From the IMG/VR virus record IMGVR_UViG_3300009506_000201, positions 1-22,703 of that record: a DNA stretch of 22,703 bases, one strand, 5' to 3'. The position numbers and the translations under genes are program-made. Positions within the stretch are counted from its first letter, which is position 1, and every line of letters begins with the position of its first letter. Source of the stretch: a virus. The notes under the pieces were generated by a model that searched no databases, was not told where the DNA came from, and worked only from the letters and a program-made list of their open reading frames with translations. Below are positions 1 through 13,819 of the stretch, piece after piece.

Positions 1-157
1 TTTCCCTTCGATTCTTCACCAGGTTACGAAGTTTGATGGCATAACAGCCACACTTGGGTTCAATTAGGGCTGTTCGTTTTGCGATCAACACTCGCAGCAA
101 TCCATACCAAGGCTTGTCTTTGTATTGCTCTGCCCATTTTATTGTATACTTTTGCAT
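1..157 (-). CDS. Unknown protein, N-terminal part only (gene runs off the left edge)
   Basis: The ATG at 157-155 overlaps the stop of the upstream hub-like gene as TAATG, which implies translational coupling. The frame is open to the window edge. The visible 52 residues start MQKYTIKWAEQYKDKPWYGL and continue as a basic sequence with a Cys-Gly-Cys and several Lys/Arg. I do not recognise the family. By position it belongs to the tail-tip/late operon, directly after the hub-like protein. It does not look like the continuation of a GTA-type hub (no TIM-barrel-like sequence), although only 52 residues can be judged. Confidence 0.75.
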   Translation of the reverse strand, partial: MQKYTIKWAEQYKDKPWYGLLRVLIAKRTALIEPKCGCYAIKLRNLVKNRRE

Positions 158-774
158 TACAACCCACCTTCTTTGAACACTTCGAATGTAAAGTTAGGAA
201 TACGTCCCGTTGCACCCAAGTCAAACTCGTCCATAACAATGTAGGCAATGCCAAGATACGCTGGAACGTTTCCAGCACCTTCCACTGCTTCAATGGTTGG
301 GTCAGGAGTCTGCGTATCGGTTCCCAGATACAAGGTTCCTGGTAGTTTGTTCTGCGTTGTAATAGGTGATCCACTATCAGGTGCGGCAACCAGTGTCCCA
401 TCAGCCCAAACACGACCAATACCTAAGATTGGACCAACACAAAGTGCAACTGCAAAACTTGCAGTGTATGTCGTCACAACAGTTTCTGTTCCACCACTGA
501 AGCCACCCTTTCCGCTTCGTTGTTTTGTTTGGTGAGCAGTCTTTGGAGCAGCCCAAATAATGTTGCCACTTATTCGCTGCTGACCAATAACAAAAGGTAT
601 CATCACTCCATACGCACTTGTTTGAATGCGTAGGTCCTGAATTTGTGGCAGTGTAATTTTTTGTTTGTCGGCAGTTGCGGCACTACCAATCATCCACCCA
701 ATAGCAGCTCCTTCACCACCTCCAACAAAGAAACCAACGGCAGCGGCAGCGGTAGGTATTACAAGTTTAGCCAT
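157..774 (-). CDS. Tail-tip hub-like protein, N-terminal GTA-hub domain only (205 aa)
   Basis: This 205-residue protein begins with a Gly/Ala-rich hydrophobic stretch (residues about 5-35). The body reads like the N-terminal region of the large tail-tip hub of gene transfer agents and lambda J-like phages: a YGVMIPFVIGQQRISGNIIW stretch, then a TYTASFAVALC...GIGRVWADG segment, then DPTIEAVEG followed by a PAYLGIAYIVMDEF-like segment, ending near IPNFTFEV. In GTA-type hubs this block is followed by hundreds more residues. Here the frame stops 7 residues after NFTFEV. The start is supported by AGGAG 7 nt upstream and by TAATG overlap with the peptidase gene. It probably forms part of the tail tip with the DUF2460, DUF2163 and NlpC/P60 products. 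One Gly-Ser-Pro is present. The domain match is from memory of the family and was not searched. Confidence 0.72.
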   Translation of the reverse strand: MAKLVIPTAAAAVGFFVGGGEGAAIGWMIGSAATADKQKITLPQIQDLRIQTSAYGVMIPFVIGQQRISGNIIWAAPKTAHQTKQRSGKGGFSGGTETVVTTYTASFAVALCVGPILGIGRVWADGTLVAAPDSGSPITTQNKLPGTLYLGTDTQTPDPTIEAVEGAGNVPAYLGIAYIVMDEFDLGATGRIPNFTFEVFKEGGL

Positions 775-1238
775 TACTCAACTCCTGGGAAAGTGTAGGC
801 TCCAATAATGCGATCGTGCCACTTTCCTGTTAATGAATTTATTGTCACTCTGCTGACGGACCCACTATAAGCATGGATGGCTTTTCGTGGTTCAGGGTAA
901 TCAAGCACAATGCCCAAATGTGATGCAACTCTTCCAATCTTGAAGACAACAATGTCCCCAGGAATAAGGTCATCAACGGGTTTTGTCTGACAACCAAAAC
1001 TCTCCATGATACCTGGAAGCAAAGGAACATCATTGTGAAGATGCCACTCTTGTGGATAGTTAGGTATCTTTTTCAGGTCGTCTTGTGTAATCAATCCAAC
1101 ACCCAATGCGACTCCAACAACAAGCATCGCACAATCAACTCCAACACCACGCACACAAGCCTGATGTTGATACGGAGTGTTAAGCCACTTTAGGGCTTCA
1201 CTTATAATTTGTTTCCGCTTGGATGTGAGGGAATCCAC
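774..1238 (-). CDS. NlpC/P60-family tail-tip cell-wall peptidase
   Basis: This is a cysteine peptidase/amidase of the NlpC/P60 type, a tail-tip protein expected to cut peptidoglycan during DNA entry. Visible motifs, numbered from the GTG start, are TPYQHQACVRGVGVDC with the likely nucleophile Cys36, VASHLGIVLD with the likely catalytic His107, and HAYSG near 122. The order and spacing match the GTA cell-wall peptidase family. The chosen start is GTG at 1238, preceded by GGAG with a 9-nt spacer. An ATG at 1253 (MEITSV...) is the alternative but lacks an SD. Either start overlaps the end of the DUF2163 gene by about 40-55 nt. The frame stays open further upstream to 1379, but that part is antiparallel in phase to DUF2163 coding sequence and unlikely to be translated. 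The stop overlaps the next gene (TAATG). Confidence 0.85.
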   Translation of the reverse strand: MDSLTSKRKQIISEALKWLNTPYQHQACVRGVGVDCAMLVVGVALGVGLITQDDLKKIPNYPQEWHLHNDVPLLPGIMESFGCQTKPVDDLIPGDIVVFKIGRVASHLGIVLDYPEPRKAIHAYSGSVSRVTINSLTGKWHDRIIGAYTFPGVE

Positions 1239-2781
1239 CGAAGTTATCTCCATTACTAAACTTGCTTTGGCAAGTTGAAAAGGTTTTATCGCAACCAGCA
1301 GTGACACTGAAGGTGTCTCCAGCATTGATTGTGAATGCTGTGGGCAAAAATAATTCAAATGTATCATTGGGTGAGCCATTTGTATGTTTCTTCACCTCAA
1401 AGGATAATCCGCTATTGTTTCCACTTGTGAAAGTCAGGATGCCGTTTGCAGCCCACGTGTCAGACTCACTCAATGAAGTGGCAGTAAAGGTTCTCTTGGC
1501 AACACTAACAGCAGCAACCGTGCTTGTGTGAGTATAGGAACCCGAACTAACACCACATTTGCCAATACGAGTGTTCGAAGATGCATCAAACAGATTATGA
1601 CGACACTTCGATGTTGTTTGAACACCAAGCGGTTTAGCAAGATCCTGCATCACGTCATAAACATCAGCACGGAATCCATCCGAACTCCACTGAACAAGAC
1701 CAATCTTACCTGCAAACACAGTTGCCACTGTTGCTTCATTTGGATTGTAAACATAAACAGGTTCATTGCTTGAATCAGCAATGCCTCCACCGAGCACAGT
1801 CCAGTCACCACCACTGCCAAGGTTGGTTCCAGCGTTCCAAACTGAAGCAACTCCATTCATAAAGACGTATGGCTGCGTGCCAGTAACGGTGGACCCATCT
1901 GATCCGAAATCAACGGGAAGTGCTCCTGCTCCTGAACCTGAAATGAGTTTTGCACGGTTGGCAGAACTCGACAAATCAAGATACTCACCAGTAGCATAGA
2001 ATTGAGACATCTCACCAGTGAATGGACTGTAGTTCAAACCACTGCTGTAACCCAAACAGTTGGTTGTATTGGTCCAGTCGACTGTGGCGTTGGTGATTGA
2101 ATCGCCAGTTAAGCTCGCCACAGAACCATTAATGTACACGTGGTAGGTGGATGTTGCAGCGTCCCAGCTAAACATAACATGGGTCCACTCGTTTACGGTC
2201 AAAACGCTGGTGGTCGTGAAAAGAAAAACATCCGTGGCTGAACCTGTGTACGCATGGAAGCCAATTTTATCAGCCTGCTGATAAAGATCAACTCGATCCG
2301 TCGCACCAGCACTAATCAAAAAGAGTTGTTCGTTGGTTGCAACCTGAGCAGGTCTTATCCAAAACGAAACCAACCCTTGTTTTGAGTTAGCCACACTAAA
2401 GGCAGTATCACGTCGCAAATACGCCGAAACGCTGCTGAAGTCTACAGCTTCAGGAGAGTAGTTAGAAAGACTCTCGTCCCAGTTTGCTTTAAACACTTCT
2501 ATTGAAGCATCGTCGAACACACCAGCAGCCAGATCCGTTTCAGGCAAATCAACAACCCATGCGGATGTAAATTCTTGGTTTGATACTTCAATGTTGTTGC
2601 GAAGTGCCATCACAAATCGTGAAAGACCAGGAGATGGTGTGTACGTAACTGAATTGATTGTTACTTCACGATCGTGATCTGTAAAACCATACACATCGCT
2701 TTGTTTGGTTGTCACCTTGACGAACGTTGCCAATGTCCCATTCTGAATGGCAGTGGTGAGAACTGGGTCAAATGTCTTCAT
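1198..2781 (-). CDS. DUF2163 tail-tip protein with an internal LamG-like insertion
   Basis: The protein has 527 residues, against roughly 280-300 for ordinary DUF2163 (GTA-type) tail-tip proteins. Residues 1-104 are the normal N-terminal domain, with a VYGFTDHDREVTINSVTYTP-like segment and IEVFKANWD. Residues about 348-527 are the normal C-terminal domain (Phage_BR0599-like), including CRHNLFD, RIGKCGV, AGCDKTFSTCQSKFSNGDNF and GGFPH. Between them, residues about 105-345 form a concanavalin/LamG-like jelly roll: SFWIRPA, WTHVMFSWDAAT, YHVYINGS, FTGEMSQFYAT. This insert closely resembles the free-standing LamG protein at 9218-9997. The gene sits between DUF2460 and the NlpC/P60 peptidase, the usual GTA-like order. 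The DUF2460 stop overlaps this start (TAATG). The insert probably gives the tail tip a glycan-binding surface; that is inference. Confidence 0.88.
   Translation of the reverse strand: MKTFDPVLTTAIQNGTLATFVKVTTKQSDVYGFTDHDREVTINSVTYTPSPGLSRFVMALRNNIEVSNQEFTSAWVVDLPETDLAAGVFDDASIEVFKANWDESLSNYSPEAVDFSSVSAYLRRDTAFSVANSKQGLVSFWIRPAQVATNEQLFLISAGATDRVDLYQQADKIGFHAYTGSATDVFLFTTTSVLTVNEWTHVMFSWDAATSTYHVYINGSVASLTGDSITNATVDWTNTTNCLGYSSGLNYSPFTGEMSQFYATGEYLDLSSSANRAKLISGSGAGALPVDFGSDGSTVTGTQPYVFMNGVASVWNAGTNLGSGGDWTVLGGGIADSSNEPVYVYNPNEATVATVFAGKIGLVQWSSDGFRADVYDVMQDLAKPLGVQTTSKCRHNLFDASSNTRIGKCGVSSGSYTHTSTVAAVSVAKRTFTATSLSESDTWAANGILTFTSGNNSGLSFEVKKHTNGSPNDTFELFLPTAFTINAGDTFSVTAGCDKTFSTCQSKFSNGDNFGGFPHIQAETNYK
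1747..2469 (-). other. LamG/ConA-like domain inserted in DUF2163
   Basis: This marks the inserted segment within the DUF2163 gene (protein residues about 105-345). The flanking halves join into an ordinary DUF2163 protein if the segment is removed. Its last ~90 residues align by eye, almost without gaps, with the C-terminal end of the LamG protein at 9218-9997. Shared anchors are the Asp-Gly-Ser-Thr near residue 295, a Trp-Asn-Ala-Gly-Thr-Asn and a terminal Asp-Ser-Ser-Asn-Glu-Pro-Val. Boundaries are approximate. Confidence 0.8.
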
Positions 2782-3401
2782 TAGTATTCTCCAAACACCT
2801 CAACCAGACGAATTTCATTCACTACATGTCCAATGGGACGGTTACTCGTGTTCAATGCTTGCAATGTTTCGCTGAAGTTTGAATCCAAGCGAACCGTGAA
2901 GTAAGCATTACCACTAAGTTTCACAACCTCCGTTCCTGTTGTGCCTGAAACCGTAATAACAGGTTGTCCACTGATGACAGAGATTGAACCCAATGTTCCA
3001 GGGCTTCCATCAACAGTAACACTCAATGCTGGCGATCCAGTTTCGTCAAGATTGAACAATGGGTGCGTCCCTGCAGTCGTGGAGTCAAGCGGAAGTGCAA
3101 GATTCCACTCCGTCCCCGAATTGTAGTCAAGTACTGCATCCTGAAGTAGTGAAAGTTCAGGGTCGTGATACTTGAAAGAGTTTAATCCGTGTCCTCGAGC
3201 TAAAAGAAAGTTCCGTATTTGCTCTTTTTGTGTGGTTGTCATTGTTTGTGTTGAAATGCGATACACGAACCGTTCCCAAATCTGTCGTTTGGTTCTGTAT
3301 TCGTACGAACCATTAGAAGCAACGGAGACAGGGTCAATCGTTTCACGAATTTGATCGTGAATCAAAGGCACGGTTGGAAAGACTACGTCATCAAATGCCA
3401 T
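2781..3401 (-). CDS. DUF2460 tail-tip protein
   Basis: The protein has 206 residues. Its N-terminal half resembles the DUF2460 family (GTA-like tail tip, distal-tail position): a short FDDVVFP opening, then a Gly-rich turn and an EYRTKRQIWERFVYRIS strand pattern typical of the family. The C-terminal half adds a beta-rich stretch with two Gly-Ser-Pro turns near residues 122 and 132. It lies between the tape measure and DUF2163, where DUF2460 proteins sit in GTA-type tail operons, and so probably joins the tail tube to the tip. Start and stop both overlap neighbours as TAATG, so translation is likely coupled. Length is close to the family's usual size. Confidence 0.82.
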   Translation of the reverse strand: MAFDDVVFPTVPLIHDQIRETIDPVSVASNGSYEYRTKRQIWERFVYRISTQTMTTTQKEQIRNFLLARGHGLNSFKYHDPELSLLQDAVLDYNSGTEWNLALPLDSTTAGTHPLFNLDETGSPALSVTVDGSPGTLGSISVISGQPVITVSGTTGTEVVKLSGNAYFTVRLDSNFSETLQALNTSNRPIGHVVNEIRLVEVFGEY

Positions 3402-5281
3402 TATGTTCTCCTCAAGTTATACGTGTTGGCTGCTCCAAACAGAAGTTCAGCAATGGGACGTTTGTTCTGTTCAAGAGCACGATAGACATCTTGTGAATCC
3501 ATCGCAGTGATGTTGACATTAACGGTGTTTCCACCACCCATTTTGTTGAGGTCTTTGTTGGGGACAACGCTACCAGCAGTTTTTGGAATCATTAGTTCTG
3601 GTCCCTGCTCACCAACAATGTAAGGCTTTCCAGCACTCACAGGACCACCATTTGCACGGAACATTGAACCCAAAAGACCACCCAACACTCCTGTTTCAGA
3701 GAAGTTGCCAGCAACGAAGGTAAGCAGTTTGCTTGCAAGCAAGTCAGCAACCATCTTGTCAATTGTTCTCTTGAACGAACCAGCCAAGTCAGTCAAGTTG
3801 CCCTGCATCACATCAAAGAAGAACGAACTGAAATCACTTTGCATGTTGCGTGCTGCTTGTCGCATAAACTCGTTTGTCTGTGAAGCAGCATCTTGCATGT
3901 CTTTAAATGCTTTGTTAGATGCACGTGAGAATGTTTCTTCGTTTATAGCACCTTCCAGAAGCAAATTGTTTAGGTGATCAATCTCAGCGTTATACTTCTC
4001 CTGAGCAGTCATGTTCTCCTCTGTGACACGCTTGCCCTCAGTCATCAACTGATCATGTTGCTTAGCAGCGTCTTCGAGGTGTTTTTGATAAGCCTTAACC
4101 TGCTCATCCATCATCTTTGTATCGGTAGGAGTTAAAACACCACCAATAGCATTGCCTGGTAACTTACCTACTGTTCCGGTCTTTGGAGCGTTCTTCTGTT
4201 GGTCATCCAAAACCTTTGACTGAGCTTTCTGAATGGCAACTAATTGGTCAAGCAAGTCGGAATAGGTCTTACGACGCTCTGCCAGTTGCTTGTTGTATGC
4301 ATCTTCCGACTGCCAACGCAATTTGCCACGTTGCAGAAGCTCCTGGTATGCATTTGCGGCTTTGGCAACCTGCTGTTCAAGCGAGTACTCAACAACTCCG
4401 AAAAACTTCAGCCAGTTCACGAGTGATTTTGCAAGTGCTGCTCCAACTTTAACCACTTGAACAGCCAACTCGCCCATGTTTTGTGCAAACTCAATGATCT
4501 TACCTCTGTTGGCAATGACAAGGTCTGCAAACTGTTTTATTTGAGGTGTGAGTTTCAAGAATGCAGCGGTGAGCTGAACTTTAACAATCTGCCACATCGT
4601 GGATAGTTGATCGTTTGCACTTTCGGCAGCCTTCACAGTCTCATTTGAGAGAACCAAACCCAGATCACGTGCTTTTGCACGCAATGCATCAATTTTCTCA
4701 ATGCCCTGTCCAAGAGCCAGAGCCAATTTAGGACCTGCATCATCACCAAACAACTGAGCTGCCAACGCACTCTTCTGAGCAGTGTTTGTCATCTGACCCA
4801 TTATGTCGACAACAGCGTTGAAAGTGTTTTCGGTTCCAGAAAGTTTACCACTTAGAATGTCGCTCGACAACCCCATCTGGTCGAACGCCGCTTTGGCAGG
4901 TCCTCCGCCCGACTTCGTGAATTCACCCAGACGTCGAGCAAAACGACGAAGACCATCATCGGTTTCTCTTGCGGATAAGCCAAACTGGTCGAAAGCGTAT
5001 CGAAGTTCTTGTAGCGATTCGGAAGTGATGTCAGAAACTGCAGCAGCTTTGCCAATGTGATCAGCATACGAAATTGCTGCCGCACCCGCACCTGCCAGAG
5101 CGGTACTGAGTCCGAGAATCCCTGTCACAGCACTCGCAATGCCCACCCCTGCAGTTTTAAGAGCACTACCAAAAGACAAGGCTGTCTTTTCAGTACCCTT
5201 CAAAGCACCTTGGAAGTTTTTGAGTTTGCTGGTTGCGTTATCCTTCAACGACAACAGCATTTTGATGTCTAAATCAGCCAT
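3401..5281 (-). CDS. Tail tape measure protein
   Basis: At 626 residues this is a short tape measure; at roughly 1.5 angstrom per residue (general rule) it implies a tail near 90-95 nm. Features in order: a basic/alanine-rich N-terminus, a strongly hydrophobic Gly/Ala stretch at about residues 42-73 (TAGVGIASAVTGILGLSTAL...), helical regions with LARRxGEF-like motifs, another hydrophobic segment near 270-295, coiled-coil-rich segments at about 300-480, and a C-terminal ANGGPVSAGKPYIVGEQGPE segment typical of lambda-type tape measures. It lies directly downstream of the frameshifted chaperones, as expected. The start is supported by AAGGA 6 nt upstream. The hydrophobic segments may insert into the host membrane during DNA ejection. 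It contains no Gly-Ser-Pro, unlike its neighbours. Confidence 0.95.
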   Translation of the reverse strand: MADLDIKMLLSLKDNATSKLKNFQGALKGTEKTALSFGSALKTAGVGIASAVTGILGLSTALAGAGAAAISYADHIGKAAAVSDITSESLQELRYAFDQFGLSARETDDGLRRFARRLGEFTKSGGGPAKAAFDQMGLSSDILSGKLSGTENTFNAVVDIMGQMTNTAQKSALAAQLFGDDAGPKLALALGQGIEKIDALRAKARDLGLVLSNETVKAAESANDQLSTMWQIVKVQLTAAFLKLTPQIKQFADLVIANRGKIIEFAQNMGELAVQVVKVGAALAKSLVNWLKFFGVVEYSLEQQVAKAANAYQELLQRGKLRWQSEDAYNKQLAERRKTYSDLLDQLVAIQKAQSKVLDDQQKNAPKTGTVGKLPGNAIGGVLTPTDTKMMDEQVKAYQKHLEDAAKQHDQLMTEGKRVTEENMTAQEKYNAEIDHLNNLLLEGAINEETFSRASNKAFKDMQDAASQTNEFMRQAARNMQSDFSSFFFDVMQGNLTDLAGSFKRTIDKMVADLLASKLLTFVAGNFSETGVLGGLLGSMFRANGGPVSAGKPYIVGEQGPELMIPKTAGSVVPNKDLNKMGGGNTVNVNITAMDSQDVYRALEQNKRPIAELLFGAANTYNLRRT

Positions 5282-5284
5282 AGT

Positions 5285-5940
5285 TTATCCTTTGTCCTTG
5301 AGCAATTTCACCAGCAATGCACTGGACATCTGCTCCAAGTTGCGATCAATGTTCTTTCTGTCCTCTTGGGAAGCATGGATGCGACCAACAGCAACAGTCT
5401 GTTCATTGATTCTTTTAGCAGCTGCACTTTCACAGGCGTACTCAAAGTACCGAATCTGTTTCAGCGACATGCCGTTCTTGAATTGATCAACTCCAAAGAT
5501 GTTTTCCAGTGTGAACCCATTATTCAGTAGGGTTACAACTGTTTCACCAAGTGTTACTTGTCGCCCTTGTTTTCCAACAACCCGTTCAGGCTGCGAAGCT
5601 CCTCCTGAACTTGTTGGGCGAAAAAATCTTTGTTGATCCTTATAATTTCAACTATGGCTTTCATTGCAGATCTGTTGTCGAACTTGCGAATTACTTCAAC
5701 ATCTAAACCCAAAGCGAGCGACATTGTTTGCTCAATACCATCACGAGCCTGCACGATGACTCCTGCAATAGCCTCAATGGACATTCCAACTTGAAGTAGA
5801 TGAAGAACTGACCGTAAGTGTTCAGCAACAAGAAAGGTTTCATGGAAACTAAATGGACGAAGCGTGAATGCATGTCCAGCAATTTCCACTGACTCTTCCG
5901 GGAACAGAAAAGCCAACTCTTTTTCAGTGACAGAGGTCAT
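5285..5940 (-). CDS. Tail assembly chaperone G-T fusion made by -1 frameshift
   Basis: The -1 frame relative to the 128-aa chaperone gene is open across that gene's stop and continues to a stop at 5285, just before the tape measure. This is the arrangement of lambda G and GT. After a slip near 5569-5575 the reading continues GRQVTLGETVVTLLNNGFTL, then FGVDQFKNGMSLKQIRYF, and ends LLVKLLKDKG. The fusion would be about 218 residues: 124 from G and 94 from T. The T part has no credible start of its own: the first ATG (5470) is deep inside it and lacks an SD. The slip heptamer G GAA AAC is not canonical (see the site entry), so the open frame and gene order are strong evidence while the exact slip point is inferred. 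The product should load the tape measure and recruit tube subunits. Confidence 0.78.
5554..5940 (-). CDS. Tail assembly chaperone (lambda G-like, unshifted product)
   Basis: This 128-residue, mostly helical protein is rich in Glu and Lys. It starts MTSVTEKELAFLFPEESVEI and has a hydrophobic core typical of phage tail assembly chaperones: a RPFSFHETFLVAEHLRSVL segment followed by helices ending in a charged EELRSLNGLLENKGDK tail. It sits between the tail tube gene and the tape measure, the diagnostic position. The start is clear, with GGAGG 5 nt upstream of the ATG. The final codons carry the putative -1 slip site. The usual role of the family is to bind the tape measure before tube polymerisation; it is absent from the mature virion. 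Confidence 0.85.
   Translation of the reverse strand: MTSVTEKELAFLFPEESVEIAGHAFTLRPFSFHETFLVAEHLRSVLHLLQVGMSIEAIAGVIVQARDGIEQTMSLALGLDVEVIRKFDNRSAMKAIVEIIRINKDFFAQQVQEELRSLNGLLENKGDK
5569..5575 (-). promoter_or_regulatory. Candidate -1 ribosomal frameshift site
   Basis: On the - strand the zero-frame codons read TTG GAA AAC AAG near the end of the G-like gene. The heptamer G GAA AAC would re-pair as GGA AAA after a -1 slip. The A-site tRNA would re-pair well, but the P-site has a middle-position mismatch, so this is a variant of the lambda-type GGGAAAG site rather than a perfect one. No better heptamer is visible before the stop at 5554. The downstream frame stays open for about 94 codons. 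Confidence 0.5.
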
Positions 5941-5961
5941 GCGACCCTCCTATGTAATTTA

Positions 5962-5989
5962 CAAGTGGGGGACCCATTTCCCCCACTTA
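5962..5989 (-). other. GC-rich hairpin between tail tube and chaperone genes
   Basis: The arms AAGTGGGGG (5963-5971) and CCCCCACTT (5980-5988) pair perfectly over 9 bp with an 8-nt loop. On the transcribed (-) strand no U-tract follows, so it is not a standard intrinsic terminator. It lies between the highly expressed tail tube gene and the low-demand chaperone gene. It may protect the 3' end of a processed message or cause a step-down in expression; both are inferences. Confidence 0.65.
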
Positions 5990-6004
5990 TCAGTGCCGTG
6001 CCTA

Positions 6005-6781
6005 TTAGGCAACAGCGTTAGACTTCACAACCTCGTAGAACTCGTTGTTTGTGTCAGGTAGAACCGCTCCTGTGAAGGAAAGCGAAGTAATGTCCTGACC
6101 AATCAAGCTCAACTCTTCAGTTGCGTTGATCTGAGCACGCTTCAGTGTAACAATAACTGGTTTGTTCGTTGCGTTCAGGTTAATACCATTGAAACGAATC
6201 TGCCAATCCTGCACACCAGCAGCAAGAGCCTCAACCGCACCCTCAATACCAACGTGTGTGTAGCTGACATAGAGTGAAGAACCATCACCAACAAAGTTAG
6301 GCGATCCACTCACAATGTAGATACCACCATTACGACTGTCTATGGTGTAATCGGTGTTGAGTGTTAATGCTGTAGCAGGCGAGCCGTTACCGTTGCTAAC
6401 GCTAACAGATGTGATGCCTGGATACGCTGTGTAAACCCACTTGCCTTCATAAGCAAATTTGACTTCCTCGGAAACAACGGAACCCGCAGCAACCGCACCA
6501 CTGTCAACGCCCTGCAAAAGAACGACAAGGTTGTCAATTGAAATGTTCTGGACAGCTAGTGTGAAATCAACTGTTGTTGAGTTTCTCCAACGAGCGGAAC
6601 GAACTCGGTTGCCTGACTGCGACTCAAAGTGGTCACCAAAATCCTGTGAATTGGAAATGCTCAAAGTATCGGCGTCGCCGAGCTTGAACCAACCACCAGT
6701 AGGATCGCCACAATCATCCGCAACTGGACGAATAAGCACGTCGCCGTTTCCGACGAAGTATTCCTGGTCTGTACATGCCAT
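6005..6781 (-). CDS. Major tail tube protein
   Basis: This 258-residue beta-rich protein has the features of siphovirus major tail proteins: an N-terminal GNGDVLIRPVADDC start, then LGDADTLSISNSQDFGDHFE followed by SQSGNRVRSARWRNSTTVDF, a pattern common in tube proteins of this type. Near the C-terminus are TLKRAQINATEELSLIGQDI and GAVLPDTNNEFYEV. The middle third (about 120-175) carries two Gly-Ser-Pro turns and a SVSVSNGNG region that may be a surface-exposed insertion. The start has GGAG 8 nt upstream. It lies between the tail terminator and the chaperones, which fixes its role as the polymerising tube subunit. A -10-like TATACT lies just upstream on the coding strand, but no good -35 is seen. 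Confidence 0.85.
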   Translation of the reverse strand: MACTDQEYFVGNGDVLIRPVADDCGDPTGGWFKLGDADTLSISNSQDFGDHFESQSGNRVRSARWRNSTTVDFTLAVQNISIDNLVVLLQGVDSGAVAAGSVVSEEVKFAYEGKWVYTAYPGITSVSVSNGNGSPATALTLNTDYTIDSRNGGIYIVSGSPNFVGDGSSLYVSYTHVGIEGAVEALAAGVQDWQIRFNGINLNATNKPVIVTLKRAQINATEELSLIGQDITSLSFTGAVLPDTNNEFYEVVKSNAVA

Positions 6782-6819
6782 GTGTAAATCTCCTATAGTA
6801 TACTAGATAGCGGTATTTA

Positions 6820-7239
6820 TTAGATACCCATTTGAACAGAGTAACTTTGATCCCAGACCAAACGTTCACTCATTTCTGTTAAACCTTGTCCTTCATACAA
6901 CCACTTTGAACCAGACACGGGGCTGCCACCCTGAATGGCTGATACAACCTCGTGCAACAAAGGCAAATAGGTCGTCAAAAGTGTGGTTTCGCTGCTGGGG
7001 TATGGAACAAGTACTTTTACCACGAAATTCAGTTTTATCAACGAACTGCATGGATTCATCGGCGACACACTCACAATTTCATCACCCGTATAAACACACC
7101 ATGCTGCAGGTATGTCAAGATCCCTATTCAAAGGATCCATGTCTTGTCCACCAACAGTGAAACCGACACGATTGGAGAAGGATGAAACTGTTTTCACACG
7201 TGTTACCAAATCCTGTGAAATTGTATCAATGTTTGACAC
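6820..7239 (-). CDS. Tail terminator protein (tail tube capping)
   Basis: The protein has 139 residues. The start is GTG at 7239-7237, with GGAG and a 6-nt spacer; no ATG is suitably placed. The gene begins 1 nt after the preceding stop. Composition and layout resemble phage tail terminators (lambda U/Gp37-like): an N-terminal helix with DTISQDLVTRVKTV, a central strand pair with SSLIKLNFVVKVLVPYPS, a helix TYLPLLHEVVSAI, and a C-terminal ERLVWDQSYSVQMGI strand similar to the family ending. Position just upstream of the tube gene supports the call. One Gly-Ser-Pro occurs near residue 106. The protein is expected to stop tube growth and join the tail to the head. Confidence 0.72.
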   Translation of the reverse strand: MSNIDTISQDLVTRVKTVSSFSNRVGFTVGGQDMDPLNRDLDIPAAWCVYTGDEIVSVSPMNPCSSLIKLNFVVKVLVPYPSSETTLLTTYLPLLHEVVSAIQGGSPVSGSKWLYEGQGLTEMSERLVWDQSYSVQMGI

Positions 7240-7240
7240 G

Positions 7241-7672
7241 TTAATCTCCTAATTGTTTGTTGAACAGCTTCGCAATCCGCCGAACGGAGTTATGGCTGAA
7301 CCCTAAAAATGGTCTTGCTGGCATCTTATTTGTGCCTGACTGCAAATACCGTGAGTAGTCTGCAGTGTTTGTTATCTCAAACTTCTTGTTCGTCACCTTC
7401 TTTTTGAAGGAACGATACAACATGCCCGATTTATACAGCAGCCCACGAGCAATGTTCCCTTCACGAAGTCGTTGCCGAATTGTGGCATACGACCAAGGAG
7501 CCCAAGGAAGTCCCTCAGGTGTCACCTTTGTTGTTCGAATACGACGGCGAGCATCCTTTATCTCTTGGTCAGCAATTTGATCGAGCACTTTTTTGGAGTT
7601 GGTTGTACGCTTTCGCTTCTTGGCGATTGCTTTCTCAACTGCACGTGCATCAAACTTGAAACTTAAACTCAT
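7241..7672 (-). CDS. Tail completion / virion morphogenesis protein (P2 gpS / Mu gpG type)
   Basis: The protein has 143 residues and is very basic at the N-terminus (AIAKKRKRTTNSKKVLDQIA). It then shows the signature of phage virion-morphogenesis proteins: TPEGLPWAPWS, then GLLYKSGMLYRSFKKKV, NTADYSRYLQSGTNKMPARP and FLGFS. The LxxSGxLxxS, Y..YLQxGT and PARPFLG elements are the classic family pattern. It overlaps the previous gene as ATGA. Together with its neighbours on both sides it belongs to the neck/tail-completion set that connects head and tail. No Gly-Ser-Pro is present. Confidence 0.83.
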   Translation of the reverse strand: MSLSFKFDARAVEKAIAKKRKRTTNSKKVLDQIADQEIKDARRRIRTTKVTPEGLPWAPWSYATIRQRLREGNIARGLLYKSGMLYRSFKKKVTNKKFEITNTADYSRYLQSGTNKMPARPFLGFSHNSVRRIAKLFNKQLGD

Positions 7673-8334
7673 GACTGTGCATCGTAAGCAAGTGTTGTTA
7701 GCACTGTGCCTGCATCTCCTGTATCAATGTTCACAACCTGGCTGCGACGGTTGTCCTGATCAACAATAGCATCACGCAACTGAATGGTTCCAACTGGATC
7801 CCACAAGAAAATCTTGTGAACTCGTATTGAATCCTTTGCTCCATACGATGCAGCGGGCATGTAGCCCAAATCACCACCAGCGGAGGAAGGTTCCTCAATC
7901 CAACAAGGAATGGAAACTGCCACTTCTGTATCGGTTGGAGCTCCACCATCGCTAAAGTCGTTGTATCCAGCACGATAGATGGAGATTGTGCTTGAAGCCT
8001 TCACCGCCATAATTGGCAAGTGTTGCTGAGCAGTGGCAATGTAGAATGTCTCACCCGTCAGTTTATCATACAAGTAATCGCCCTGTTGAATGTCATAGAG
8101 ATCATTCAAACGACCATCAACAAAGCAACGCCACATTGAAGTGCCAAAGGTGTGAGCAGATCCATACTTGTTATCGAGTGCGAATGCAGCCTTTTTGCGA
8201 TCGATCCAGTTTACGTCCTGAATTGGGTTCGTCAGCACCTCAGAACGATAGATGTCAAAGTCTCGACCCAAAGCCTTCGCAGCCTTGCCGAAACCCTTCC
8301 AAATCTTCTTCTGGTACGTATCTGCTTTACTCAT
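7669..8334 (-). CDS. Probable head-tail connector / head-closure protein
   Basis: The protein has 221 residues. The N-terminal third reads DTYQKKIWKGFGKAAKALGR, then DFDIYRS, resembling the openings of phage structural proteins found between the adaptor and tail-completion genes in podo- and siphoviruses. The central part has FVDGRLNDLYDIQQGDYLYD, then GETFYIATAQQHLPIMAVKA, a small beta-barrel pattern typical of head-closure proteins. The C-terminal part is beta-rich, with an acidic ending. The start ATG overlaps the 51-aa gene upstream (ATGA). I cannot name a family with certainty; the role is deduced from position and fold-like pattern. A tail-side neck protein is the main alternative. Confidence 0.6.
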   Translation of the reverse strand: MSKADTYQKKIWKGFGKAAKALGRDFDIYRSEVLTNPIQDVNWIDRKKAAFALDNKYGSAHTFGTSMWRCFVDGRLNDLYDIQQGDYLYDKLTGETFYIATAQQHLPIMAVKASSTISIYRAGYNDFSDGGAPTDTEVAVSIPCWIEEPSSAGGDLGYMPAASYGAKDSIRVHKIFLWDPVGTIQLRDAIVDQDNRRSQVVNIDTGDAGTVLTTLAYDAQS

Positions 8335-8486
8335 TTGCTCACTTCACCCTTTTTAGGCTTGTACCCTGCAGCCAAAATGGCTCTCATTTGTTTCAGGGCT
8401 TGTTCACGAGATGCGTAGCAATGTCCACTCGCACCCCATTTGTATCCACGTGTTCCTCTCGATGTTGTGCATCTACGAATTGGCAT
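8331..8486 (-). CDS. Small basic protein with a KWG-x-SGHCY motif (51 aa)
   Basis: This 51-residue gene has an excellent SD (GGAGGAGA, about 6 nt before the ATG at 8486) and a stop that overlaps the next start as ATGA. The translation begins MPIRRCTTSRGTRGYKWGAS, continues GHCYASREQALKQMRAI and ends YKPKKGEVSK. It resembles the small basic proteins seen in many tailed phages that contain GYKWG-x-SGKCY followed by a helix of the A..KA..QG type. Two cysteines (6 and 24) could bind metal, but that is not shown. Function is unknown. SD quality and coupling make it a real gene despite its size. Confidence 0.82.
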   Translation of the reverse strand: MPIRRCTTSRGTRGYKWGASGHCYASREQALKQMRAILAAGYKPKKGEVSK

Positions 8487-8487
8487 G

Positions 8488-8712
8488 TCAATCTCCTCCC
8501 TTATTCATAACCTTATGTATGGTTCTGTTCCCGACTACAACGGCTCCAAACAAAGCCCATAACATTACGTCAATGTCCGTGTGTCCTTTGTATACAACCC
8601 AGCAGAATGCCCAAGTCATCGCTGCATAACCAACGTTGGACCAGAACTTCGTATGACTTACGTGACCTTGTTTCTGGTCAACAAACAAAAACTGGTACAA
8701 GAAGCTGAACAT
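8488..8712 (-). CDS. Small membrane protein, holin candidate (74 aa)
   Basis: This 74-residue protein has two likely membrane segments: about residues 23-41 (FWSNVGYAAMTWAFCWVVY) and about 48-64 (VMLWALFGAVVVGNR). They are separated by a short polar loop KGHTDID, with a charged C-terminal tail. Small size, two transmembrane helices and clustering with another membrane/coiled-coil protein fit a holin or lysis-accessory protein. No endolysin gene adjoins it and none is seen in the window, so the lysis role is uncertain. It could instead be a superinfection or virion membrane protein. The start overlaps the upstream stop as TAATG. Confidence 0.6.
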   Translation of the reverse strand: MFSFLYQFLFVDQKQGHVSHTKFWSNVGYAAMTWAFCWVVYKGHTDIDVMLWALFGAVVVGNRTIHKVMNKGGD

Positions 8713-9032
8713 TAGTGAAACTTCCTTTCTCGGATTACTTTCAGTTCACCCTCAACGGTTGAGACACGCTCGGTAGTGTTATCAAGTTTCCTATCAAGTA
8801 CTTCAACCTTGTAATCCACTTTGTCGAAGCGAGCACAAATGTGGTTGTGTCGTTCTTCTTGTTTCTTCTGTCCGTCCTCGTGTTGTTGAGTGTTCCGTTC
8901 ATCGAGTTCGTGGATCATGTTCTTCAGTGCACGGAAAGCAAAAAAGATTGCTCCTGCTACAATAAGGAACAGAAATGGTTCAAGTCCTGCCTTGACAGCA
9001 GATTCGAGTCCTTTAAGTGCTACTTCCCACAT
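8712..9032 (-). CDS. Membrane-anchored coiled-coil protein (106 aa)
   Basis: The protein has an N-terminal helix MWEVALKGLESAVKAGLE, a transmembrane segment at about residues 19-35 (PFLFLIVAGAIFFAFRA), then about 65 residues of charged heptad-like helix (DERNTQQHEDGQKKQEERHN ... VDYKVEVLDRKLDNTTERVS). The layout resembles small phage holin/BhlA-like or spanin-like proteins but is not diagnostic, and no lipobox or signal-cleavage site is visible. The gene is coupled to the downstream membrane-protein gene (TAATG). Together they form a two-gene membrane cassette inside the fibre region. A lysis role is plausible; a scaffold for envelope interaction is an alternative. Confidence 0.6.
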   Translation of the reverse strand: MWEVALKGLESAVKAGLEPFLFLIVAGAIFFAFRALKNMIHELDERNTQQHEDGQKKQEERHNHICARFDKVDYKVEVLDRKLDNTTERVSTVEGELKVIRERKFH

Positions 9033-9035
9033 TAC

Positions 9036-9218
9036 TTATTCCTTCAACGATCGCTGAAGAGCCTCTGATAGATTCTTCAATTTGCCTATTACCATTTTCA
9101 TCAATTCTCGTTCAGTAGTGTCAGATTTGCGGACAAGAGCAAGTAGTTCTTCATCAGTTGAAATCATCTCCATGATGGGTTGAAGTCTTTTCTCAATTAT
9201 TTGTTGTTCCATTTTCAT
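9036..9218 (-). CDS. Small helical protein, unknown (60 aa)
   Basis: This 60-residue charged helical protein starts MKMEQQIIEKRLQPIMEMIS and ends SEALQRSLKE. The start overlaps the stop of the LamG gene as TAATG, and a second ATG lies two codons on. There is no membrane segment and no motif that I recognise. It lies between the LamG protein and the membrane/coiled-coil protein and is followed after 3 nt by that gene, so it is co-translated with them. The regular heptad-like hydrophobic spacing suggests an oligomerising helix. Confidence 0.6.
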   Translation of the reverse strand: MKMEQQIIEKRLQPIMEMISTDEELLALVRKSDTTERELMKMVIGKLKNLSEALQRSLKE

Positions 9219-9997
9219 TATGGCACCTGTACTGGTTCATTGGAACTGTCTGTAACAGATCCTGTCATTGTGAAACTATTACCACTACCATAGTTTGTTC
9301 CAGCATTCCAATTGCTTGCTGTTCCTTGTAGGTAAACGAGTGGTGCTGTTCCTGTTGGTGTGCTACCATCAGCTCCAAGATCAACAGGCTGTGCTCCTGA
9401 ACCTGCGGCTGTGATAAACTTCTCCCTATTAGTTTGAACAGATAAATCGATGTATTCGTTAGTCAAATAAAATTCAGCCATGTCACCATTTATTTTCTGT
9501 GAGATAGAATACCAAGTAGCAACATACCAATCATTACAACTGAAGTCAATACTACCACTGTTGTAAGTAGTCCACGTTGGAGAAACACTTGATCCATTAA
9601 TGTACATGTGACGTTTGGCACTATTGGTCATGTCGACGGACATCATAAAGTGAATCCAACTTCCTATAGGCATAGCATTCGCTGGAGTTGTCACGTTTAG
9701 TAAAATAGATGGAGTTGCATTTCGAGCCACAATCAACAGGTCATCATTGGTGGCTCCTCGTTGTGCGTACATACGGTATGAGGTTCCAACTAAGAAACAA
9801 GCTGGCATCTGCACAACATCACTTGCCCCTCTCCACCAAAACGATAGAGTCATGGTGCTTGCATCGCTTGCTCCCATTCCACCTGAAGCATACAAGTAGT
9901 CATTGCCATCAAATGTTACAGCGTCAGCCACATAAGGAGCCGCACCACCCAATGACCGTATTCTGTATCCGCTTGCTGTTATTCCTGGAATTGGCAT
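9218..9997 (-). CDS. LamG/concanavalin-like lectin-fold protein (259 aa)
   Basis: The protein opens MPIPGITASGYRIRSLGGAA, then shows a jelly-roll pattern: VTFDGNDYLYASGG, TMTLSFWWRGA, IGSWIHFMMSVDM, KRHMYINGSSV, KINGDMAEFYLTNEYIDLSV, and a C-terminal block with ADGSTPTGTAPLVYLQG and NWNAGTNYG, ending DSSNEPVQVP. These match the LamG/ConA-like domain family of phage tail and decoration proteins, which bind carbohydrates. The C-terminal block is strikingly similar to the insert in the DUF2163 protein (1747-2469), so the two are paralogous modules. It lies directly downstream of the fibre gene, sharing a TAATG junction with the following gene. It may be a fibre-tip lectin or a decoration protein; which one is unknown. 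Confidence 0.82.
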   Translation of the reverse strand: MPIPGITASGYRIRSLGGAAPYVADAVTFDGNDYLYASGGMGASDASTMTLSFWWRGASDVVQMPACFLVGTSYRMYAQRGATNDDLLIVARNATPSILLNVTTPANAMPIGSWIHFMMSVDMTNSAKRHMYINGSSVSPTWTTYNSGSIDFSCNDWYVATWYSISQKINGDMAEFYLTNEYIDLSVQTNREKFITAAGSGAQPVDLGADGSTPTGTAPLVYLQGTASNWNAGTNYGSGNSFTMTGSVTDSSNEPVQVP

Positions 9998-12543
9998 TAT
10001 GGTAGATCCAAATCACCAAATAGGACCCAAGTATCAGTTGCACGCTTCAAGAGTGTTACCACGCTCCACTTGTCTCTTGTTGCTAGTGCTCCGATTGGGC
10101 TTCCGTTTTGGTTTGCTGCGTTAATGGTAACAGGAGGACTACCAACCGATTGGATGGTTGTTTGACCTGCTCCCGTTTGAATTATGTGTATCTCTGTTCC
10201 AACAGGGAATGCCACATCTGCGTTGGCTGGCACATAAACCGTGTTCGCACTTGCATTACTCATCTCAACATACTGACCTGCGTCTGTTGCAGCAAGTGTA
10301 TAACTCGTACCACTCTGACCATTGATGTCACGAATGTTCTCTGGTGAGGTGATAACAGTGTGACCAGTTCCATTTGGAGTTATGTTGATGTCACCATTGC
10401 TTGTGCTTACAATGTCGTGGCTATTTACATCAAGATTTCCACCGAGTTGTGGAGTGGTATCCTCAACAACATTGTTCAGGAAGGTTGGGACCCAGTTAAT
10501 CCAACTTGTTCCGTTGTAGTACAGAATGTCACCATCTGCAACAGATGGGCTACCAGTGAAATCAACATCAACAAGATCGCCAAGGTTTGCTAATGCGATA
10601 CGACCATCAACGCTGGTGTTGAAGTCGCTTACCTGACTTGCTGTTATGGTGATTGCAGCATTGTTAATCTGTGCTGGATCCACCTGTAATGGAGAACCAA
10701 CTAAATCCGCCTTCCCAGCAAGACTGGTTGATAGGTTCAGCACTGCTGTGTAATCGCTGTTTGTTAGGTGGTAGTACTCATTTGCTGTTCCACCTTGAAT
10801 ACCAGACAAGTCATTGTGAACACTAACACCCGCACCACTGAATGATGTATCAAATGCAGACTCAACGCTGAAGAACGATGCCTGGTTCTGCTGAATGATA
10901 ATCTTACCAACCAGAATACCGTGAACCTCCAACTGTGGTGGTAGGCTTCCTGGTGGCTGTGCATCCTGTGCCTGTGCCAGTGTGTAGTCGCCCTGACCAT
11001 AAACAACAACGAGGTTGCTGTCAGTCTCTTCGTAAATCCAGTGAACACCGTAACGGTTCGTTGTTAGTGCGTGAAGGGTACCTGTCCCATCATCATAATA
11101 CAGATTATCAATCTGCGTCTGCAGTGGTACTTCTACCCATCCTGATGGAGTGTCACGGTAGAAGTACGAGAAGGATGGAGCTAATGGACTACCAGTTGCA
11201 GCAGACGTATCCTGTGCATTTGTGGTGAAGCGAGTTAGTCCTTCCCAGAATGCACCAGCGGTAATGGCAAAGTTGCGTGTTCCTGTTTCACTGACGAGAG
11301 CACCTGACTCCCAACTGATTGCTTCAGTTGCAAGTAAACGCTTGACAACATGCGTAATACCATCAACAATAAGCACATTGCGGTAGTCGTTGATGTGAAC
11401 AACTGTTCCATTACGATACACATTACCAAGCAGAAGGTTGGTCTCGTGGTCTGTGCGTTCTGTTACTGTGGCAACAATCTGTGGTGTGCCAGCATTGTAC
11501 TCAACATAGATGTAGTTAATCTGTCCATCCGTAAGGGCAAGACCAGTTGTTCCAGCAACATCTATTGGGTAAATGGTTGCAACTTCGCTATCAACTGCAC
11601 GAATGAAACCAGTACCAGCAGCGACATCAACAGTTCCACTTCCACCATCAGTAATGCTGAAACCTGTGATGATACCACAACCGTCAGTTACATTGTGCAA
11701 GTCCTGAAGTGTTGTGTATGTTGGAGTGCCAAGTAAGTCAATTGTAGACTGGCTTGCTGCAAGTGCAAGATTGGCTTGGTTGACATCAATAGCAATCTGA
11801 TCTGTTTGGTCTATTATACTAATGAGGTTAGAGCCTTCATACAAAGACTTGAATTGTAAATCAACTCCACTCTTGCTTTTGAATACTCCAACAGTTGGAC
11901 TTCCGCTACCAACATTGGATGCTGTGTTTGCTTCACCAGAAGATGATGGTAGTGCCAATGCTTGCCACTTGCTTGCAGCCGCATTCCATGTAAGCACATC
12001 GCCATCAATGCGAGACTCTGGACTGCCTGCAAAGTCTGTATCAGACAAATCTGAAAGTGTTGCTAAAGCAATTCGTGCATCTGCTGCTGTACTAAAATCA
12101 CTTACTTGTGAAGCGGTGATAGAAATCGACGCCTGTGTGAAGTGTATTGTGGCATCATCAATGTGGCTATCAATTTGTGCATGGGTGTATGACCCAATGT
12201 TCATGAGATTGGTATGATCAATTGCACTCTGGTTGATTTGAGTTGGATCAACCTGAAGCGGACTACCAACCAAATCTGCTTTTGAACCCAAGTTCAACGA
12301 AGCAGCGGTAAAGTGGATTGTGCTATCACTTGTGTGAGTTGTCAGAGTGGAACTATCCGCTTTCAGATCCAATGCAGCCTGTAAGTCCAACTGATCAGAA
12401 AGCGTACCAACTAACGACCCCCAAGCCAACGTACCCGAAACCGTGCCCGCAGGACCTTGTGGTCCTGGAGTGGAAACAGTGATGGTGAACTCATCATGAT
12501 TGACAGTTACATCGAACTCTTGTGGGACTTCTATTGTGCTCAT
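9997..12543 (-). CDS. Tail fibre with internal repeats and a collagen-like motif (848 aa)
   Basis: The N-terminus has a short virion-attachment-like region, then a collagen-like GPQGPAG at about residues 27-33. Two partly repeated modules follow. Module A has KADLVGSPLQVDPTQIN (88-104), then ITASQVSDFSTAADARIAL and the segment to SKW (142-193). Module B has KADLVGSPLQVDPAQIN (611-627) and a matching segment to about 684. Between them lies a unique beta-rich region (about 280-570), likely the adhesin body. The C-terminus has GTSYTLAATDAGQYVEM and FPVGTEIHIIQTGAGQTTIQ, a common phage-fibre terminal domain. Eight Gly-Ser-Pro turns occur. The start overlaps the upstream gene stop (ATGA). It probably binds the host receptor; no catalytic motif for a depolymerase was seen. 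Confidence 0.88.
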   Translation of the reverse strand: MSTIEVPQEFDVTVNHDEFTITVSTPGPQGPAGTVSGTLAWGSLVGTLSDQLDLQAALDLKADSSTLTTHTSDSTIHFTAASLNLGSKADLVGSPLQVDPTQINQSAIDHTNLMNIGSYTHAQIDSHIDDATIHFTQASISITASQVSDFSTAADARIALATLSDLSDTDFAGSPESRIDGDVLTWNAAASKWQALALPSSSGEANTASNVGSGSPTVGVFKSKSGVDLQFKSLYEGSNLISIIDQTDQIAIDVNQANLALAASQSTIDLLGTPTYTTLQDLHNVTDGCGIITGFSITDGGSGTVDVAAGTGFIRAVDSEVATIYPIDVAGTTGLALTDGQINYIYVEYNAGTPQIVATVTERTDHETNLLLGNVYRNGTVVHINDYRNVLIVDGITHVVKRLLATEAISWESGALVSETGTRNFAITAGAFWEGLTRFTTNAQDTSAATGSPLAPSFSYFYRDTPSGWVEVPLQTQIDNLYYDDGTGTLHALTTNRYGVHWIYEETDSNLVVVYGQGDYTLAQAQDAQPPGSLPPQLEVHGILVGKIIIQQNQASFFSVESAFDTSFSGAGVSVHNDLSGIQGGTANEYYHLTNSDYTAVLNLSTSLAGKADLVGSPLQVDPAQINNAAITITASQVSDFNTSVDGRIALANLGDLVDVDFTGSPSVADGDILYYNGTSWINWVPTFLNNVVEDTTPQLGGNLDVNSHDIVSTSNGDINITPNGTGHTVITSPENIRDINGQSGTSYTLAATDAGQYVEMSNASANTVYVPANADVAFPVGTEIHIIQTGAGQTTIQSVGSPPVTINAANQNGSPIGALATRDKWSVVTLLKRATDTWVLFGDLDLP

Positions 12544-12902
12544 GCTCTTGTTACCTCACGCTGAACGACAAGATACCCATAAATTGGTGTCTTGCGAGTA
12601 CTTGGAGGTGATCCAGTTGATTCGTATTGAACATCAAACACAAAACTACGATTGTGTCCAGTTACTGGCAGTGAAGCTGAGACGCCAGATGAAAGCACAA
12701 GATCAAACACACCAGCTGTGTAGTCCACTTCCTCAACAGTGAACGATGCAACAACCTCTGTATCATACTCATTCCGAATGTCGGCACGAATTGTCATGCC
12801 AGACAAGTCGATTCCAAGTGGACTACCTGTCGTTGCTTCTATTGTTACACGATAACGAACACTGTCACCCTGAACAAATGGAATTTTGATTGGATTTGCC
12901 AT
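12540..12902 (-). CDS. Fibre-attachment / baseplate-upper-like protein (120 aa)
   Basis: This 120-residue beta-rich protein starts MANPIKIPFVQGDSVRYRVT, with a IDLSGMTIRADIRNEYDTEV segment and VDYTAGVFDLVLSSGVSASL, ending TPIYGYLVVQREVTRA. The Q-G-D-x-x-x-Y... start and DLSGxTIxxxIR pattern are familiar from N-terminal attachment domains (BppU-like) and from small proteins next to phage tail fibre genes. It lies immediately upstream of the fibre gene with ATGA overlap, which supports a role in attaching or orienting the fibre. The SD is AGGAAG with a 7-nt spacer. Two Gly-Ser-Pro turns are present. The family call is moderate. Confidence 0.62.
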   Translation of the reverse strand: MANPIKIPFVQGDSVRYRVTIEATTGSPLGIDLSGMTIRADIRNEYDTEVVASFTVEEVDYTAGVFDLVLSSGVSASLPVTGHNRSFVFDVQYESTGSPPSTRKTPIYGYLVVQREVTRA

Positions 12903-12920
12903 AAACTATCTTCCTTTCTC

Positions 12921-13172
12921 TTACATCTGCTTCATTAAGCGAGCAGACTTTAGCAAATGCCGTGACATTGACGAAAAGGTTTTAGGTTCCACTCTCGTCT
13001 TCTCAGCGTTGAAATCAAGAAGCATCTGTTTGTCCACATTTTTGAAAATAAATTCCACCTGGTTTTCTGTCACTCGTCGCATGTCAATTATCTGTACATT
13101 CTTGACACGCAGAAATGATGCTAACGTTAGGTCAGTAGTGGCAAACTCGCTTATCAATGATGTCACTTTCAT
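12921..13172 (-). CDS. DUF5659-like small protein (83 aa)
   Basis: The protein, from ATG 13172, reads MKVTSLISEFATTDLTLASF, then LRVKNVQIIDMRRVTENQVE and FIFKNVDKQMLLDFNAEKTR, followed by a helix with LLKSARLMKQM. The pattern TTDLxLASFLxxKxxxI..., then VEFIFKN..., then a short D-F-x-A/N-x-x... resembles the small DUF5659 family found in phages and bacteria, of unknown function. The start at 13172 gives the typical family length and sits 13 nt after the stop of the adaptor gene. Upstream in-frame ATGs at 13226 and 13367 overlap the adaptor gene. The SD near 13172 is weak (AAGG). Function is unknown; its position suggests a late-expressed or virion-assembly role. Confidence 0.65.
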   Translation of the reverse strand: MKVTSLISEFATTDLTLASFLRVKNVQIIDMRRVTENQVEFIFKNVDKQMLLDFNAEKTRVEPKTFSSMSRHLLKSARLMKQM

Positions 13173-13185
13173 GTGTGTTTCAACC

Positions 13186-13782
13186 TTATCGGACCAAAGT
13201 TGGGAATTTTTCTCCACGCCAGCCATCAGGCGAAAAAGCACGAAGCAAACGAACAACAATGTCTGGAAGTTTGTCTTCACGAGCCTTTCGTAGAGTCTGT
13301 GTAATGGGTCCAACAGAAAAGCTTTGTAGTCGTTCCTGATCCTGTCTGGAAGCGAAAGGAAGCTCATCTAGCCACTCTTCAACATAGGAAAGTGCCAATT
13401 CGCAACACGCTCTTTCAATTTCGTGTGGCAGACGGAACGAATCTTGGTAGTAATTGCCATCCGTGAACTCAAGGAACTCCTGAGATGGAAGAAAATCACG
13501 GCTTGTCATCCACAACCGAGGAAACTGCAGTGCCTGATTGGAGTTCGTTCTGCGACCAGACCAAGTTTCCGCATCAAGTCTTAGACTTGCCCTGACAAGA
13601 AACTGCTGCTTTTGGGTTGTGGAGAGTTTATTCCACGTGTCATACTTTGGATGACGAGCAAAATAGTCGTCAGCCCCTAAAATTGAGTAATCGGTGCTAT
13701 CGTGCGTCAGGGTGTAGGAACTAAGCGGAACGTAACTATTGGAAGATGTACCCTGAAGGGTATAATCGAATTCAAATGCCAT
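13186..13782 (-). CDS. Head-tail adaptor (DnaT-like / HK97 gp6-like)
   Basis: The ATG at 13782 has AAGGAGA 5 nt upstream, so the in-frame TTG just before it is not needed. The protein (198 residues) shows the pattern of the adaptor family often annotated DnaT-like: YSILGADDYFARHPKYDTWN, then KQQFLVRASLRLDAETWSGR, then QALQFPRLWM, then LPHEIERACCELALSYVEEW. W-G-x-R, QAL-x-(W/F)PR and (L/V)P-x-x-I-x-x-A are the usual family anchors. It lies directly after the major capsid gene and its terminator, as expected for a protein that docks beneath the portal. The last part (SFSVGPITQTLRKAREDKLP) is also adaptor-like. It is not expected to bind single-stranded DNA despite the common annotation. Confidence 0.8.
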   Translation of the reverse strand: MAFEFDYTLQGTSSNSYVPLSSYTLTHDSTDYSILGADDYFARHPKYDTWNKLSTTQKQQFLVRASLRLDAETWSGRRTNSNQALQFPRLWMTSRDFLPSQEFLEFTDGNYYQDSFRLPHEIERACCELALSYVEEWLDELPFASRQDQERLQSFSVGPITQTLRKAREDKLPDIVVRLLRAFSPDGWRGEKFPTLVR

Positions 13783-13819
13783 CAATGTCTCCTTGCTAAC
13801 TGATTCTATTTATGAGTTA

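Follow-up and report, generated by a model that had tools for sequence, protein, structure and literature searches.

What is a lectin-like domain doing inside the tail hub protein of a siphophage, and where did it come from? The question is raised by an IMG/VR virus record of 22,703 bases (the window, meaning the whole stretch analysed), a siphophage fragment whose structural genes lie on the minus strand. An original prediction, made from the sequence, had placed a LamG-like domain at 1747-2469, as residues 105-345 of a 527-residue DUF2163 protein (minus-strand ORF 1198-2781), and had proposed that it splits this protein in two and displays a glycan-binding surface at the tail tip.

A gene-transfer-agent-type tail tip

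The window contains genes for terminase, a DUF4055-type portal, scaffold, capsid, connectors, fibre, tail tube and tape measure, together with a DUF2460 distal tail protein (Dit), a DUF2163 hub, an NlpC/P60 peptidase and a short g15-like protein (Table 1). The tail tip is of the gene-transfer-agent (GTA) type, as in RcGTA and phage R4C (PMC7296036, PMC10276861), and has the gene order of that type: Dit, hub, NlpC/P60, g15-like. The hub is of the same family as the RcGTA and R4C hubs (g13; PF09931 plus BR0599; structures 6tba and 8gtc), with the same four cluster cysteines; those hubs have 296 and 291 residues, carry no LamG domain and are accompanied by full-length megatrons, whereas the window combines an insert with a mini-megatron. 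The Dit match to PF09343 has an E-value of 0.0039, under the gathering score, and covers profile positions 3-186 of 205. The start of the peptidase is uncertain: the longest ORF begins at 1379, and relatives have about 150 residues.

From the peptidase gene next to the hub, the original prediction had proposed that recognition and penetration are combined in one complex. This part we do not retain: a hub gene beside NlpC/P60 is the standard GTA-type order, and for RcGTA the peptidase is believed to lie inside the tail lumen and to be expelled (PMC7296036); adjacency of the genes therefore shows no such complex.

Two features of the virion proteins were seen in passing. In the fibre-like protein the stretch KADLVGSPLQVDP(T/A)QIN recurs, followed by an ITASQVSDF motif, a pattern suggestive of internal duplication of the shaft. 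The minus-strand proteins of the window (157-14855) contain 18 copies of the tripeptide GSP, with 1.4 expected and a maximum of 6 in 500 shuffles; 15 different 9-mers encode it, and all copies, 8 of them in the fibre, are in presumed virion proteins. In this enrichment the window tops the 233 fetched loci, and L151 (10) and L064/L240 (7) show it too; GSP is perhaps a turn motif or a modification site.

Table 1. Tail-tip and LamG features of the window, with the three parts of the hub
Feature	Position	Strand	Basis
Tail hub protein, DUF2163 (PF09931 + PF09356/BR0599), 527 aa, internal LamG	1198..2781	-	Pfam/PHROG; phmmer to R4C hub 8gtc_P and RcGTA hub 6tba_7A
Hub attachment domain, N-terminal part (residues 1-104)	2470..2781	-	PF09931 14-104, profile 12-103/160
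Inserted LamG/ConA-like jelly roll, predicted (residues 105-345; core 108-344)	1747..2469 (core 1750-2460)	-	Laminin_G_3, paralogue match, model
Remaining attachment domain, Fe-S cysteines and BR0599 oligosaccharide-binding-type domain (residues 346-527)	1201..1746	-	BR0599 443-521
Distal tail protein (Dit, DUF2460), 206 aa, usual size	2781..3401	-	PF09343, phrog_2913, gene order
NlpC/P60 tail peptidase	774..1253	-	PF00877 E 1.1e-5
Mini-megatron, 205 aa, only the N-terminal iris/adhesin-like part of GTA g15	157..774	-	phrog_4271 1-205 of 1309, E 4.3e-61
Tail-fibre-like protein, 848 aa	9997..12543	-	PHROG minor tail protein / tail-fibre connector matches
Free-standing LamG paralogue P0002, 259 aa	9218..9997	-	37% identity to hub residues 108-344

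A LamG domain within the hub attachment domain

Pfam divides the hub as cleanly as had been predicted, into PF09931 at residues 14-104 (E 7.9e-28, in two stretches, 98.1 bits against a cut-off of 26), Laminin_G_3 (PF13385) at 138-261 (E 4.5e-13, 50 bits against a gathering cut-off of 27.6) and BR0599 (PF09356) at 443-521 (E 4.3e-25, 88.3 bits against a cut-off of 22.9). The predicted domain is thus identified by Pfam and by its match to a free-standing paralogue in the same window, and that match provides the best estimate of the insert boundaries, residues 108-344. The insertion site is inside the PF09931 attachment domain, not between the two hub Pfam domains; it follows a conserved '...NW' that closes a strand and precedes 'GxLGxV', between positions 105 and 107 in RcGTA numbering, and phmmer aligns hub residues 1-104 with RcGTA hub residues 17-105. 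The predicted Fe-S cysteines C393, C409, C497 and C504 are invariant in alignments A1 and A5. Since these four putative cluster ligands and the hub fold are kept on either side, the segment is a domain insertion into what appears to be a working hub.

The two checks that accompanied the original prediction, a profile search and a structure prediction, were both carried out: the segment matches Laminin_G_3 and its flanks match PF09931 and BR0599, and AlphaFold2 places a jelly roll between two hub parts, in a whole-hub model of low confidence (pTM 0.42) whose domain arrangement is unreliable. Local pLDDT of the insert in this model is mostly 57-93 (residues 131-300). The model was built on a trimmed 14-row alignment (A11), a few columns of which are still misplaced; the trimmed set was used because mixed alignments of LamG rows with many hubs placed the LamG rows in the wrong columns. 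The free copy, P0002, was modelled with pLDDT 78 and pTM 0.81. Its top match in structure comparison is 4dqa, a putative carbohydrate-binding protein (Z 19.4, rmsd 2.9, 206 residues aligned), and further matches are PAPP-A, pentraxins, neurexin LNS domains and sialidase CBM40-type domains; the insert, taken from the whole-hub model as residues 108-330, matches 4dqa with Z 16.3 over 180 residues. The RcGTA and R4C hubs match residues 4-505 of the hub model (Z 12.7 and 12.2, about 210 aligned), with a large rmsd that stems from displaced parts of the model. Because 4dqa matches the segment and the RcGTA and R4C hub fold is recognised on both sides of it, the LamG segment is a separate domain and no integral part of the hub. 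The Laminin_G_3 profile matches 8 of 9 LamG family members at E 0.01 or better, and the modelled insert has the jelly-roll fold of the Laminin_G_3/ConA-like lectin superfamily.

The hub and its insert come from one 22.7-kb IMG/VR contig, and a metagenomic assembly could in principle fuse two phage segments. Such an artefact is most improbable here: the hub is a single uninterrupted in-frame ORF, its insert has a G+C content of 0.474 against 0.43-0.44 in the flanks and 0.452 in the window, the two LamG copies are merely 37% identical, so that there was no repeat collapse, and comparable hub inserts occur in sequenced isolates. The base composition of the insert shows no recent transfer, and a whole-window repeat search revealed no repeats that explain the insertion, the clearest pair being the two LamG copies themselves.

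Hubs without and with inserts

The excess length of about 240 residues that had been predicted is borne out by four sister contigs (L102, L103, L104 and L106) with the same gene order and insert-free hubs of 278-286 residues: these hubs align on both sides of the LamG segment, and the window hub is 241-249 residues longer. More than 20 related viral contigs have hubs without the insert (37-52% identity). We looked for standard homologues that carry the segment, and the possibility that it is common to all relatives was rejected, the sister hubs being without it. The core span is 250-309 residues in 290 of the 292 complete hub ORFs, which were collected from viruses, phages and prokaryotes (some of the contigs twice), and an insert of more than 30 residues is present in the remaining two, the window and Brevundimonas phage Gurke, in a sample that was drawn by similarity to insert-free hubs and P0001 and that under-samples hubs with other inserts. 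A hub with the same LamG would outscore others against P0001; that hubs with other inserts are under-represented became clear from the later phage search described below. A scan of viral contigs with the single protein P0001 found no relative, and alignments were used instead.

When annotated phages were searched with the Gurke hub, hubs of 463-708 residues were found. Pfam shows Laminin_G_3 between PF09931 and BR0599 in the hubs of V10, DSS3_MAL1 and RcXuper, and DSS3P8, MD18 and RpAliso have full-length homologues of this hub, so that six roseophages share with the window a GTA-type hub of LamG type. The proposition that no other hub carries LamG was thereby rejected. The exact arrangement, with LamG inside the attachment domain, is seen in the window's contig alone: in the V10/RcXuper type the insert lies between PF09931 and BR0599, at about residues 190-570, and PF09931 is complete to profile position 159-160, whereas in the window PF09931 is broken after position 103. 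The V10/RcXuper-type phages have genomes of about 146-150 kb, and their LamG is distantly similar to that of the window (V10, blastp E 0.004 and 10.7 profile bits; MAL1 and RcXuper below threshold). Hubs of the phiCbK/Gurke type, of Sphingobium phage Lacusarx and of RXM likewise have an extra module of about 170-270 residues but differ from the window in the module and in the insertion site; the phiCbK group module, of about 250-270 residues, has no Pfam match, and that of Lacusarx matches F5/8 type C weakly (E 3.5e-4, below the gathering score). The original view that tail-tip proteins normally lack such a domain therefore holds as to rarity, at 2 of 292, but is limited by the six roseophages, the phiCbK group, Lacusarx and RXM. 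With LamG in V10-type hubs, other modules in phiCbK and Lacusarx, and only remote similarity between the LamG of the window and that of V10, hubs gained binding-type modules several times, at two sites. We found no description of LamG-bearing hubs in the literature searched, and the DSS3P8 genome paper makes no mention of laminin, lectin or concanavalin.

Some details of these hubs may be recorded. Those of V10 (L314 3001-5061), DSS3_MAL1 (L315 3001-5067) and RcXuper (L316 3001-5127) have 686-708 residues, and their Laminin_G_3 seems to be embedded in another insert that separates PF09931 from BR0599; the V10 Dit is enlarged (304 residues). The Lacusarx hub (L313 3001-4392) is annotated as an F5/8 type C domain protein, and its module is at the second hub insertion site.

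The free paralogue and a mobile LamG family

The best clue to the origin and role of the insert is P0002, which was absent from the original prediction. The alignment of its residues 22-258 with hub residues 108-344 covers 245 columns at 37% identity (E 5e-37) and extends from the first strand through the closing 'SSNEPV'. P0002 is a gene of its own, its start codon sharing one base with the stop codon of the fibre gene. In a tree of LamG copies the free copy is the nearest by identity as seen from the insert, with open forks and a long branch, and a duplication within the window phage is a plausible origin of the pair. We found no member of the LamG family in the 23 other clade records, several of which are fragments.

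Members of the family occur at 80 loci (with a few contigs represented twice) and in 84 ORFs, of which 45 are free-standing proteins of fewer than 330 residues; in longer proteins the domain is N-terminal in 16, C-terminal in 9 and internal in 5, and a further 9 ORFs are cut. None of the 84 is a DUF2163 ORF. In size and form P0002 is typical of the free-standing phage LamG proteins (L014, L325, L346 and others); these, like the N-terminus of CRP-603 gp52, are of the same domain family but, unlike the window insert, not within a hub. In roseophage CRP-603 the domain is the N-terminal part of a 902-residue DUF7483 protein in the tail-fibre region. In another phage, L365, the tail-tip operon (2087-6251) has LamG fused to the C-terminus of an 837-residue protein that has a weak B_lectin match and occupies the distal-tail position next to the hub; a further, weaker LamG copy of 262 residues is a free gene directly upstream of the BR0599 hub. 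The family is thus a mobile module of about 235 residues, and, given the L365 fusion, the free gene beside its hub and the window insert, one that arrives at the tail tip in more than one way.

In L018 (7956-13040) and L019 (7929-11018), both large viral contigs from a single sample, proteins with very long Ser/Glu-rich repeats (SSSSSES) bear LamG at their N-terminus.

A miniature megatron throughout the clade

The g15/megatron homologue has about 200 residues in every one of the 28 complete clade loci (on 25 distinct contigs; for example L102 7276-7869 and L104 7270-7893, as well as the window); in most other hub loci it exceeds 750 residues and is typically about 1300. Like that of the window, these proteins consist of the iris and adhesin-like part, without the central, peripheral and fibre-binding domains, and the whole clade thus lacks those parts of g15 that bind sugars and fibres. 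The hub LamG may compensate for the shrunken megatron, but sister phages manage without an insert. We regard as doubtful the fuller version of this idea, in which surface recognition moved into the hub by capture of a fibre-linked lectin copy while the megatron shrank to its pore-forming N-terminal 200 residues, leaving two lectin versions at two places on the tail for staged or bivalent glycan binding.

The same reduction, shared by 28 of 28 complete loci, could mean instead that the insert is mainly structural, bracing the hub ring or replacing contacts lost with the 200-residue megatron, with no ligand; moreover, the domain interrupted by the insert is the one by which the RcGTA hub docks on the distal tail ring (PMC7296036). 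We think this unlikely, since other clade members have the same mini-megatron and no insert, which makes the insert dispensable for assembly, and since the module is found elsewhere free-standing or within long fibre-like proteins.

Proposed role of the hub LamG domain

Taken together, these results make it probable that a GTA-type siphophage hub took up a LamG/ConA-like module in a loop of its attachment domain and uses it as an accessory adhesin, a putative glycan binder. The module belongs to a mobile, adhesin-like phage family, of which the phage holds a second copy as the separate gene overlapping the tail fibre. As the hub is predicted still to fold around the insert, each hub subunit would display one LamG at the tip. 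Tails of RcGTA and R4C have three hub subunits, which form the tip with three megatrons (PMC7296036, PMC10276861); three hubs bearing LamG would offer three additional binding sites. There the domain would most likely bind a glycan of the surface or capsule and keep the particle near and oriented, ahead of or during engagement of the main receptor. The glycan ligand, the outward display, the copy number and the part played in adsorption are what we infer for the domain.

The glycan-binding surface of the original prediction agrees with the LamG/ConA-like fold and the location in a tail-tip hub, but its novelty was overstated: the standard hub is described as having an oligosaccharide-binding domain (PMC7296036), and a sugar-binding surface at the tip is therefore not new in itself. 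Hub, megatron, Dit and fibres have all been proposed as saccharide binders in RcGTA and R4C (PMC7296036, PMC10276861). The adhesin reading is further supported by the family being mostly free-standing or on long proteins, at least one of them in a tail-fibre region, and by the independent hub inserts of V10, DSS3P8, MAL1, MD18, RcXuper, RpAliso, the phiCbK group and Lacusarx. It has points against it. LamG and pentraxin folds also have protein-binding or structural roles. The loop that holds the insert might face the interface with the distal tail ring, which the attachment domain touches in RcGTA (PMC7296036).

A protein ligand, either an outer-membrane receptor or the phage's own fibre or LamG paralogue, deserves consideration. 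LamG domains of the neurexin type have proteins as ligands, the sequence-profile and structure matches both include neurexin LNS domains, and a related LamG lies beside the fibre in the same genome; yet a putative carbohydrate-binding protein and sialidase CBM40 domains rank among the best structural matches, and saccharides are believed to be what RcGTA-like tips chiefly recognise (PMC7296036, PMC10276861), which leaves protein binding quite unlikely.

The closest parallel for an accessory adhesin is the evolved Dit of lactococcal, streptococcal and Lactobacillus siphophages, in which a saccharide-binding module is likewise inserted in a loop of a tail-tip protein (PMC7291167, PMC6669499, PMC10688798). 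Skunaviruses whose Dit contains CBM insertions adsorb to EPS-bearing lactococci, and infection was restored when classical phages were given a CBM-bearing Dit (PMC10688798). The same CBM bricks recur in several virion and tail proteins (PMC6669499), a reuse that the window shares. Evolved Dit differs in its host protein, which is Dit and not the hub, in its CBM, often of BppA fold, and in its Gram-positive hosts; its binding and adsorption effects have been tested, whereas the window LamG is known from sequence and model. It is because of the analogy with CBM-bearing evolved Dit that we infer an accessory-adhesin role for the hub LamG; the window hub may work like an evolved Dit, yet it is none. 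A binding module inserted in a tail-tip protein was already known; new are the insertion site inside the attachment domain of a GTA-type hub and the free copy in the same genome.

These findings extend the evolved-Dit principle, by which binding modules are spliced into tail-tip proteins, to the GTA-type hub, in phages related to those of Gram-negative bacteria, with different modules acquired repeatedly at two sites. Hubs with and without inserts provide natural comparisons for the part that the tip plays in adsorption, and with a lectin in the hub, a free paralogue and a miniature megatron occurring together, it can be tested how labour is divided within GTA-type tips.
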